DNA of 64,000 bases. It comes from Neotamlana sargassicola. GTDB taxonomy: Bacteria; Bacteroidota; Bacteroidia; Flavobacteriales; Flavobacteriaceae. Each line of letters starts with the position of its first letter. Position 1 is the first letter of the stretch. Position numbers and translations under genes: made by a program. Shown piece by piece: positions 9,544-20,941 of the stretch. Below the pieces are notes generated by a model. The model searched no databases and was not told the origin of the DNA. It saw only the letters and a program-made list of their open reading frames with translations. The stretch lies in assembly GCF_020523965.1 (NCBI RefSeq), contig NZ_JAJAPX010000001.1, positions 372,001-436,000 on the forward strand, given 5' to 3'.

Positions 9544-9622
9544 TTGTCAGGTCGAGCGCAGTCGAGACCTTATTTATATTTCGTTTATTCCATAGACCTC
9601 TCGACTGCGCTCGAGGTGACAA
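9544..9622. repeat. Inverted pair of a dispersed tcgagcgcagtcgag element
   Basis: Two copies face each other: ttgtcaggtcgagcgcagtc at 9544 and its near reverse complement ending gctcgaggtgacaa at 9622, with a 25-bp AT-rich loop. The arms could pair over about 25 bp in RNA. A single related arm (actgagcgcagtcgaagtg) occurs at 19844. It lies within the thi operon between thiE and thiG. Confidence 0.7.
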
Positions 9623-18500: not shown

Positions 18501-19817
18501 ATGAGTACTAAAACAATTCCGTACGTAGCAAACAAAGTAAAAGATATTACTTTGGCAGAATGGGGCCGAAAAGAAATTGAATTAGCCGAAGCAGAAATGC
18601 CAGGTTTAATGAGCTTACGCGAAGAGTACAAAAACGATCAACCTTTAAAAGGTGCGCGTATTGCAGGTTGCTTACACATGACCATACAAACCGCTGTTTT
18701 AATTGAAACTTTACAAGCTCTTGGCGCCGAGGTTACTTGGAGTTCATGTAACATTTTCTCTACACAAGACCAAGCTGCTGCTGCTATTGCCGCTGCTGGA
18801 ACTGCCGTTTACGCATGGAAAGATATGACCGAAGAAGAATTCGATTGGTGTATCGAGCAAACCTTATTTTTTGGCGAAGACCGTAAACCACTTAACATGA
18901 TTCTTGACGATGGTGGCGATTTAACCAATATGGTTTTAGATAAATACCCAGAATTAGCTCCAGGAATTAAAGGGTTAAGCGAAGAAACCACAACGGGCGT
19001 TCACCGTTTATACGAGCGTGTTAAAAACGGAACATTACCAATGCCTGCAATTAACGTAAACGATTCGGTTACAAAATCTAAATTCGATAACAAATACGGA
19101 TGTCGTGAAAGTGCTGTAGATGCTATTCGTCGTGCTACCGACGTTATGTTAGCCGGAAAACGCGTAGTAGTTTGTGGTTATGGCGATGTTGGTAAAGGTA
19201 CAGCAGCCTCTTTTAAAGGCGCTGGAAGTATTGTAACTGTTACAGAAATAGATCCAATTTGTGCTTTACAAGCCGCTATGGATGGTTTTGAAGTTAAAAA
19301 ACTAGAAAACGTAGTTGCAACTGCCGATGTAGTAATTACAACTACAGGAAACAAAGATATAGTTCGTGCAGAACACTTTAAAGCTATGAAAGATAAAACC
19401 ATAGTTTGTAACATTGGGCACTTCGATAACGAAATACAAATGGCTTGGTTAAACGAAAACTACGGAAATACCAAAAATACCATTAAACCACAAGTAGATA
19501 AATATACCATTAATGGTAACGATATTATTATACTTGCCGAAGGTCGTTTAGTAAACCTAGGTTGTGCCACTGGCCACCCAAGTTTCGTAATGAGTAACTC
19601 GTTTACCAACCAAACTTTAGCACAAATCGAGCTTTGGAATCATAGCGATAAATACGAAAATGATGTGTATATGCTACCAAAACACCTCGATGAAAAAGTA
19701 GCAAAACTACACTTAGAAAAAATTGGCGTAGAGCTTACCGAACTTAAACAAGATCAAGCCGAATATATTGGCGTAACTGTAGAAGGTCCTTACAAACCAG
19801 AACACTACAGATATTAA
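18501..19817 (+). CDS. ahcY: Adenosylhomocysteinase
   Basis: 438 residues. NAD-dependent cytosolic enzyme that splits S-adenosylhomocysteine into adenosine and homocysteine, keeping methyl-transfer reactions running. Landmarks are [15 protein letters not shown] (about 57-71), the NAD-binding GYGDVGKG at about 226-233, and the C-terminal PYKPEHYRY, whose Lys/Tyr reach the neighbouring subunit's NAD. Length is typical. It is a single-gene unit with its own terminator. Confidence 0.98.
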
Positions 19818-19880
19818 AAGTATCAACCTGAATAATGCCACACTGAGCGCAGTCGAAGTGTTTTTCAGTATCTAAAAAAC

Positions 19881-20018: not shown

Positions 20019-20147
20019 CTTCTCGATACAATTTCTTCGTGCCTCGAAATTACTCGAAGTGACGTGACTTATAAAAAAATATAAAACGTAAATACAAAAC
20101 GAGCGTCAGTTCGAGTGATTCGCCCTAAGCGAATTGTATCGAGAACC
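20019..20147. repeat. Palindromic repeat unit U1
   Basis: Starts cttctcgatacaatttc and ends gcgaattgtatcgagaacc, so the ends are inverted copies of each other. Inside are ctcgaagtgacgtgacttat and cgagcgtcagttcgagt. About 128 bp, nearly identical to U2, 167 bp away. Together with copy B and the ahcY terminator this explains the 497-bp stretch 19818-20314 that has no gene. Confidence 0.85.
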
Positions 20148-20186
20148 TTAACCTATTAATCTTAGCTCATTTTAACCATATCTAAA

Positions 20187-20313
20187 CTTCTCGATACAAT
20201 TTCTCGTACCTCGAAACCACTAGAAGTGACGTGACTTATAAAAATTCCAAAACGTATTTAGCAAACGAGCGTCAGTTCGAGTAATTCGCCGTAAGCGAAT
20301 TGTATCGAGAACC
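20187..20313. repeat. Palindromic repeat unit U2
   Basis: Same order as U1 with few changes: cttctcgatacaatttctcg, cactagaagtgacgtgactt, gagcgtcagttcgagtaatt and end aattgtatcgagaacc. The last base is one position before the stop codon of the GIY-YIG gene. Spacer to U1 is 39 bp. Confidence 0.85.
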
Positions 20314-20314
20314 T

Positions 20315-20608
20315 TTAATGTTTAAATTTCTTCTTAGCTAAATTGGGTAGTTTATCAAATTCTCCATTTATTAGAGCTTCTTTTTTAGCTCTAGACCATT
20401 TTTTTATTTGCTTCTCAGTTTGAATAGCAATACTAATATCCGTGAATTCGGCGTAAAATACTAGTTCCAAAGGTCTTCTTTTATAAGTATAACTTTCCAC
20501 ATATTTTCCTGCCTTATGTTCTTCTAATCTTTTAGTTAAATTAGAGGTTATACCTGTGTAATAGGAATTATCAGAACATTTAAGGATGTAAACATAGGAT
20601 ATTTTCAT
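20315..20608 (-). CDS. Single-domain GIY-YIG nuclease superfamily protein
   Basis: 97 residues, UPF0213-like. The GIY-YIG motif appears as YVYILKCSDNSYYTGIT (5-21), followed by the conserved Arg in NLTKRLEEH (Arg27) and the metal-binding Glu in AIQTEKQIKKWSR (Glu65), so catalysis could be intact. No DNA-binding domain is attached. The gene lies exactly between repeat unit U2 and the half-unit U3: its stop is one base from U2 and its start 16 bp from U3. A role in repeat spread is an inference; UPF0213 proteins have no settled function. Confidence 0.85.
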   Translation of the reverse strand: MKISYVYILKCSDNSYYTGITSNLTKRLEEHKAGKYVESYTYKRRPLELVFYAEFTDISIAIQTEKQIKKWSRAKKEALINGEFDKLPNLAKKKFKH

Positions 20609-20624
20609 TTTAAAAATATATTTA

Positions 20625-20680
20625 CTTCTCGATACAATTTCTCGTACCTCGAAACCACTCGAAGTGACGTGGCTTATAAA
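20625..20680. repeat. Half repeat unit U3
   Basis: Left half of the U1/U2 unit: cttctcgatacaatttctcg, tacctcgaaaccactcgaag, tgacgtggcttataaa. It is cut off exactly at the stop codon of the next leftward gene (20681). Confidence 0.8.
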
Positions 20681-20941
20681 TTAATCCTGCTCGAAATACC
20701 ACCACAAACTAGAATCTATACTCGATTTCATTTTATTAATATCGACTTCGTCTTTTAAAAACACGGTAAGGTTTTCGTTGGCGCGGTTACGACCTATACT
20801 TTCTCTTATCTCAATGGTTTCAATTTCGTTAAAATGCTCTAAATGATTTTTTATTCTAGCATCTAGCGATTCATCGCCTAAAAAAATCTTGATGGTAGGT
20901 TGCGTTGGGGAATTTCTAATTTCAGATCTAAACGGTAGCAT
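20681..20941 (-). CDS. Small conserved-type hypothetical protein
   Basis: 86 residues. The alternating strands and helices (TIKIFLGD, RIKNHLEHF, IETIEIRESI, ENLTVFLKDE) suggest a ferredoxin-like alpha/beta fold, and it ends in an aromatic SLWWYFEQD. I do not recognise a family. Its stop touches half-repeat U3 and it is divergent from the DUF1569 gene. Possibly co-transcribed with the GIY-YIG gene across U3. Confidence 0.5.
   Translation of the reverse strand: MLPFRSEIRNSPTQPTIKIFLGDESLDARIKNHLEHFNEIETIEIRESIGRNRANENLTVFLKDEVDINKMKSSIDSSLWWYFEQD

Follow-up and report, generated by a model that had tools for sequence, protein, structure and literature searches.

The single-domain GIY-YIG protein encoded between palindromic repeats in the window (the whole stretch of DNA analysed, 64,000 nucleotides long) is probably a hairpin-specific DNA nuclease whose targets are the REP-like repeats surrounding its gene, a reading to which we assign a probability of about 0.78. 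Judged from the comparative data below, it would very probably be the missing dedicated partner of the CGTC-tagged REPs, acting on their hairpins in single-stranded DNA. The arrangement of repeats and gene in the window is itself far beyond chance. The parts of the locus, from one bordering gene to the other, are as follows:

18501-19817: S-adenosylhomocysteinase gene (ahcY site), one border of the repeat/nuclease locus
19841-19863, plus strand: hairpin element, CACTGAGCGCAGTCGAAGTG, not of the units' flavour but of the one found around paralogue L002 elsewhere in the window genome
20019-20147: unit 1, 129 bp, two hairpin elements opposite in orientation; a large single hairpin when folded, z -7.2
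20019-20064, minus strand: hairpin element forming the left arm of unit 1; CGTC tag at the minus-strand 5' end, outer stem CTTC/GAAG
20104-20147, plus strand: hairpin element forming the right arm of unit 1; CGTC tag at 20104, outer stem GTTC/GAAC
20187-20313: unit 2, 127 bp, built like unit 1; fold z -3.9
20187-20231, minus strand: hairpin element forming the left arm of unit 2
20270-20313, plus strand: hairpin element forming the right arm of unit 2, starting with CGTC at 20270
20315-20608, minus strand: gene for a single-domain GIY-YIG nuclease of 97 aa that retains its catalytic residues (Pfam match, invariant residues, fold model)
20625-20669, minus strand: the 'half unit', one hairpin element lying 16 bp before the start codon of the nuclease gene
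20681-20941: small ORF, the other border of the locus

The first-pass annotation had described two near-identical units, each ending in inverted copies of one sequence, and a half unit beyond the gene. This description holds: units 1 and 2 are identical at 114 of 129 positions, the 14-bp ends TTCTCGATACAATT and AATTGTATCGAGAA are perfect inverted copies, and the half unit, when aligned to unit 2, extends over 20624-20680. The two distances given for the gene, one base from unit 2 and 16 bp from the half unit, are also right, but the gene lies on the minus strand, and the sides have to be exchanged. Specifically, it is the nuclease stop codon that lies one base from the right arm of unit 2, while the 16-bp gap faces the start codon and not the end of the gene.

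The window protein matches PF01541 at 65 bits and no further Pfam family. Across 40 aligned relatives, Tyr7, Tyr17, Gly19, Arg27, His31, Glu65 and Lys69 are invariant, which confirms the earlier remark that Arg27 and Glu65 are kept; with the fold and the catalytic Tyr, Arg and Glu all present, the protein belongs to the GIY-YIG superfamily. No NCBIfam family scored over its cut-off for the nuclease and PADLOC gave no match, while a PDB sequence search returned UPF0213 proteins and, apart from these, only unrelated chains matched weakly or over a short length. UPF0213 is the best solved relative (PDB 1zg2, 1ywl), and a structure model of middling confidence (mean pLDDT 76) has UPF0213 and Slx1 as its nearest folds. 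Slx1 is a branched-DNA nuclease; the modelled fold would thus fit, without proving, a hairpin substrate.

Its gene content and its relatives place the window, G000:C10:372001-436000, probably in the Flavobacteriaceae. Within this family, 120 genera were searched and relatives were found in 73, the genome-wide statistics being based on pattern counts and 20-kb loci. Virtually all of the 30 closest relatives, read by eye, are bracketed by palindromes. When 65 GIY genes from 60 stretches of at most 20 kb were compared with 813 control genes of the same stretches, the median inverted flank score was 27 against 17, with scores of at least 30 in 35% of the GIY genes and 0.5% of the controls; the corresponding medians for the direct flank score were 46 and 17. 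A wider scan covered 84,980 genomes and returned 80 loci; its named set is skewed to Pseudomonadota (62/80) because a single Azospirillum protein served as query. Of 79 GIY genes, 46 had a tagged hairpin on each side at a distance of up to 150 bp, compared to 11 of 895 controls and 2 of 243 isolated controls. On the 5' side, 64 of the 79 carried a tagged hairpin within this distance, and 33 were without one on one or both sides. The enrichment of GIY-YIG genes beside palindromes proposed for related genomes is therefore clearly evident.

The partnership had been put forward as a flavobacterial one, and it is not so limited: other hairpin flavours take part, and the 46 doubly bracketed genes span at least nine named phyla. 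Bracketing of the classical CGTC kind was found in Azospirillum lipoferum, Novosphingobium aromaticivorans, Sinorhizobium meliloti, Shinella, Neorhizobium, Sphingobium, Aeromonas and Neisseria gonorrhoeae, where the repeat, CGTCATTCCCGC..GCGGGAATC, is dRS3-like; bracketing by other flavours was found in Planktothrix, Sphingomonas and Spirosoma. The GIY gene of Rhizobium tumorigenes showed no clear bracketing. A bracketed GIY-YIG gene on a Planktothrix agardhii plasmid (L147) has an MmeI-type restriction enzyme gene on one side and the DISARM gene drmA on the other.

Bracketing is not general to small GIY-YIG genes, since true UPF0213-type genes have none: tagged hairpins were present at 0 of 10 such genes (B. 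subtilis YazA and nine others). The earlier label 'UPF0213-like' is correct for the fold, which the window protein shares along with its size, but not for the setting, as the UPF0213/YazA genes stand in tight operons, often with those for tRNA1(Val) methyltransferase and rsmI, and lack the palindromes, whereas the window gene has tagged hairpins. In three Bacillota loci (L156, L273, L277) the UPF0213/YazA gene lies in a tight operon between the tRNA1(Val) methyltransferase gene and rsmI.

Each unit of ~128 bp is a pair of ~45-bp hairpin elements facing each other, and the half unit corresponds to one element. Each repeat has two stems, the outer one short, together with a (C/T)GTC tag and an internal loop of conserved sequence (GAG / TCGA); one window element reads CGTC-A-[GTTC]-GAGT-[inner stem]-GTATC-[GAAC]-C, with GATTCGC/GCGAATT as the inner stem of the right arm of unit 1. 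In the partner element CTTC/GAAG replaces GTTC/GAAC, so that both sides of a pair are changed inside the window itself. As single-stranded DNA, both whole units fold far above shuffled sequences (the z values listed above). When the five arms of the window were folded singly as DNA, three did no better than shuffles and two right arms did better, at z of about -2.2. Since single arms mostly fold no better than shuffles, the evidence for the hairpins is covariation and not energy.

This covariation is found in both stems. Among 80 distinct elements of the window flavour, the base before TTCTCGATA pairs with the base after ACTCGAA in 76, and these pairs include all four Watson-Crick kinds (37 CG, 32 GC, 5 AT, 2 TA). 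In the GAGCGCAGTCGA flavour, the outer arms are exact complements in 48 of 59 elements, compared to 4.2 expected. An inverted pair of GAGCGCAGTCGA-type elements with differing outer stems (GGTC/GACC and CCTC/GAGG) is also present at 9546-9618 of the window. The inner stems vary among copies within one genome and still pair. Specifically, stems of at least 5 were found in 16/29, 16/19, 8/9 and 4/8 distinct elements of four genomes, against 1-4% in shuffles; when halves were swapped between elements in the same test, such stems remained in 0-9%, and in 39% in G016, where the stems are of shared sequence. Stems thus pair despite copy-to-copy differences, and therefore shape and tag are kept while the stem sequence drifts.

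The same pattern applies to all repeat flavours, which have a common (C/T)GTC tag and stems that differ by compensatory change. CGTCA is the 5-mer with the most even enrichment beside genes of all six flavours, and (C/T)GTCA is present in the 5' flank of 134 of 159 labelled genes. These observations bear on the proposal that the hairpins are the gene's own terminators or RNA stabilisers, spread by other means. The elements stand at both gene ends and could be transcribed, and an action in RNA is ascribed to REPs (PMC3733652). A terminator, however, would not need the shared (C/T)GTC tag, nor does this proposal account for elements lying upstream as well as downstream or for arrays free of the gene, and we regard it as distinctly unlikely.

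The window genome contains eight PF01541 genes. Three small paralogues each lie between palindromes unlike those of the window gene: GTCAGGTTGAGCGCAGTCGAAACCC at L002, ATTCCTGCGAAAGCAGGAAT and TACCCGCTTTCGCGGGCA at L003, and TTTCCGAGAAATCGGAAA and ATTCCCTCTTTCGAGGGAAT at L004. Three flavours are present in this genome, and its UvrC and exonuclease-type PF01541 proteins are not bracketed. A fifth small GIY-YIG gene (L006, G000:C10:943218-946433; gene at 1495-1803) stands directly behind tRNA-Asn; the tRNA end and terminator are duplicated after the gene, and the C-terminus of the protein resembles translated tRNA sequence. L006 has the look of a separate GIY-YIG element whose site is a tRNA gene.

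Paralogues of differing flavour occur in 14 genomes, and host background is therefore not the cause of the flavours. Mapped on a tree of 168 proteins (102 columns, weak support, with near copies clustering by descent), the six flavours, labelled from the flanks by eye and by pattern, require 12 changes, compared to a mean of 63.7 in shuffles, with 0 of 200 shuffles as low. Repeat flavour thus follows nuclease clade, paralogues within one genome included. Among the flavour F genes (L126, L130, L135, L137, L138), several precede the same downstream gene, bioA-like by eye, across genera; this place, kept across genera, speaks for a branch that has settled and passes vertically, not for a gene in active movement.

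The abundance of the repeats was then compared with the presence of the gene. The window repeat family has about 30 copies at some 17 places in its own genome. Its pattern, TTCTCGATAC..CACTCGAA, was detected in 50 of 120 genera, with at most 55 copies, and a backwards control gave 1 match. The suggestion that the number of units is related to the presence of the gene was borne out: at least two elements, counting those beside the nuclease gene itself, occur in 16 of 16 genomes with a window-type nuclease (median 9; one of them, G077, assigned by flavour and not by tree, the other 15 all holding copies) and in 20 of 104 others (Fisher p 2e-10). Among these others, the share is 18 of 57 with other GIY relatives and 2 of 47 with none. 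In the genus comparison, G000 (the window genome) and G003, both with the gene, have 30 and 17 copies, while G001 and G002, where a window-type nuclease is absent, have 13 each; copy numbers of 20-25 were counted in three further genera that likewise lack it. Two gene-free arrays of window hairpin units lie in the window genome at G000:C32:357935-358294 and G000:C32:385596-386189, with periods of ~158 and 155 bp.

The comparison of empty and filled sites, proposed earlier across strains, was carried out on sister species at the ahcY site. In G002 this site holds exactly one element, the one corresponding to the left arm of unit 1 (20019-20064), and the empty site reads ..aaacTTCTCGATACAATTTCTTCGTGCCTCGAAATTACTtGAAGTGACG..acttata/tattaatcctg. 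The window genome has at the same site an element, the array, the gene and a further element, ending in acttataaattaatcctg. The site is also filled in G003, in a different arrangement, and at the same locus of G016 a repeat array contains two nuclease gene copies, equally similar. In G001 the element is followed by an unrelated ORF (L024); this ORF, which stands after ahcY beside the single hairpin element of the site, is methyltransferase-like by eye. Taken together, these sites would fit either insertion into a repeat or loss by repeat-repeat recombination.

The ORF of G001 would also agree with the view that repeat-rich gaps are merely safe landing places for small mobile genes, the nuclease being unrelated to the repeats. 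However, such a passenger role leaves unexplained the match of flavour and clade, which largely refutes it, as well as the different flavours beside the paralogues of one genome and the tracking of the gene by copy number; in addition, control genes of the same loci are almost never bracketed. A passenger role is accordingly very unlikely. By contrast, the partnership of nuclease and repeats first suggested from the window is strongly supported, both by the enrichment beside repeats and by copy numbers that track the gene.

For a hairpin-specific nuclease acting on its surrounding repeats, the following course of events may be envisaged. Wherever DNA becomes single-stranded, during replication, repair or uptake, the repeat would fold into a hairpin; the nuclease would recognise tag and hairpin and cut there; and repair of the cut from another copy would spread the repeats, occasionally inserting the nuclease gene in one of them. 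Residence among its own targets would maintain the gene, and, once it is lost, the repeats would stay behind as relics. Counting against this reading are the repeats present in genomes that lack the window-type nuclease, the fixed place of several flavour F genes and the 33 of 79 genes not bracketed on both sides. Whether the spread is due to the nuclease alone is, on the sequence evidence, close to an even question.

Among known systems, the window repeats appear by their sequence to belong with the CGTC-tagged REPs. These were surveyed by Di Nocera and others (2013), who included the dRS3 repeats of Neisseria and described the class as without a dedicated transposase or enzyme (PMC3733652). 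Both have a (C/T)GTC tag at one end, a hairpin, inverted dimers and intergenic positions, and the surveyed A. lipoferum, S. meliloti and N. aromaticivorans (PMC3733652), as well as Neisseria, have bracketed GIY genes here. Unlike these REPs, the window elements are longer, with two stems and a variable sequence. They do not have the classical form (a stem of 8-9 bp beginning AT, a loop of 4-5 and a tail CCA), which the proteobacterial class C elements do have; their outer stem is instead 4 bp long (CTTC or GTTC), and besides an internal loop they have an inner stem whose sequence varies.

The analogy with RAYT/REP systems drawn in the first-pass annotation holds for the anatomy, since a single-domain nuclease gene is bracketed by matching palindromic repeats found genome-wide, often as inverted pairs (REPINs), but not for the enzyme. 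RAYT systems consist of HUH tyrosine enzymes and GTAG-tagged REPs, whereas here a GIY-YIG gene, and no HUH/Y1 tyrosine transposase, lies between the repeats, and the tag is (C/T)GTC and not GTAG at the hairpin foot. Because its enzyme belongs to another family, the window system stands outside RAYT/REP, though similar in working. It is extremely unlikely that the repeats owe their movement to a RAYT or other transposase, with the GIY-YIG gene simply caught between them: RAYTs are indeed thought to move GTAG-tagged REPs, but RAYTs and transposases were sought beside CGTC repeats with only a few fortuitous cases (PMC3733652), and the gene bracketed here is a GIY-YIG gene. GIY-YIG homing endonucleases share the catalytic domain and the residence of the gene at its own target; they differ in that the window system has no intron or intein and no separate DNA-binding domain, and has a probable multicopy hairpin target.

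The closest known case is Ssn of Neisseria. A 2025 paper is reported to describe these site-specific single-strand nucleases as GIY-YIG enzymes that cut single-stranded DNA at a Neisseria repeat and have thousands of homologues; the repeat, NTS, is reportedly present in hundreds of copies, and Ssn reportedly modulates transformation. If this account is right, the partnership is known in kind. Our literature search, limited to one library, returned no paper joining GIY-YIG with REPs, dRS3, RAYT, UPF0213 or Ssn. Both Ssn and the window protein are small single-domain GIY-YIG proteins with a multicopy repeat as target, putative in the case of the window protein, and dRS3-type repeats stand on both sides of the gonococcal homologue. 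The window type differs in falling into another clade than the gonococcal protein on the 168-protein tree and in having repeats with a conserved tag and internal loop and freely varying stems. New here, provided this account of Ssn is correct, would be the match of flavour and clade, stems that drift while the tag stays fixed, the link to the whole class of CGTC REPs, and a flavobacterial type with elements of its own.

The case of Ssn also raises the possibility, which we rate at somewhat below even, that the nuclease cuts the repeats but serves mainly to police DNA exchange, tuning transformation or recombination, with the spread of repeats as a side effect; the repeats might then, on the same tentative footing, mark self DNA or set the places where incoming single strands are cut. 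The gonococcal relative, whose identity with the window protein is 38% across 76 residues and which has dRS3-like bracketing, speaks for such a role, as do the reported cutting and transformation effect of Ssn. Against it, repeat number varies widely between sister genera. This role and that of a hairpin-specific nuclease targeting its surrounding repeats are not mutually exclusive.

In conclusion, the hairpin-specific nuclease proposed for the window may be one instance of a broader system. With odds that we judge to be evenly balanced, single-domain GIY-YIG proteins would be the general partners and dispersers of CGTC-tagged REPs across bacteria, forming a second, RAYT-independent REP system that reads hairpin shape and tag while stems drift and clades and flavours coevolve. 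CGTC-tagged REPs are widespread small bacterial repeats whose enzyme was left open by the 2013 survey (PMC3733652), and one family of small nucleases, tracking them from phylum to phylum, is a concrete candidate. Stems that vary freely and yet remain paired suggest recognition by shape; if true, this would be of value both to single-strand DNA tools and to an understanding of the spread of repeats through genomes.
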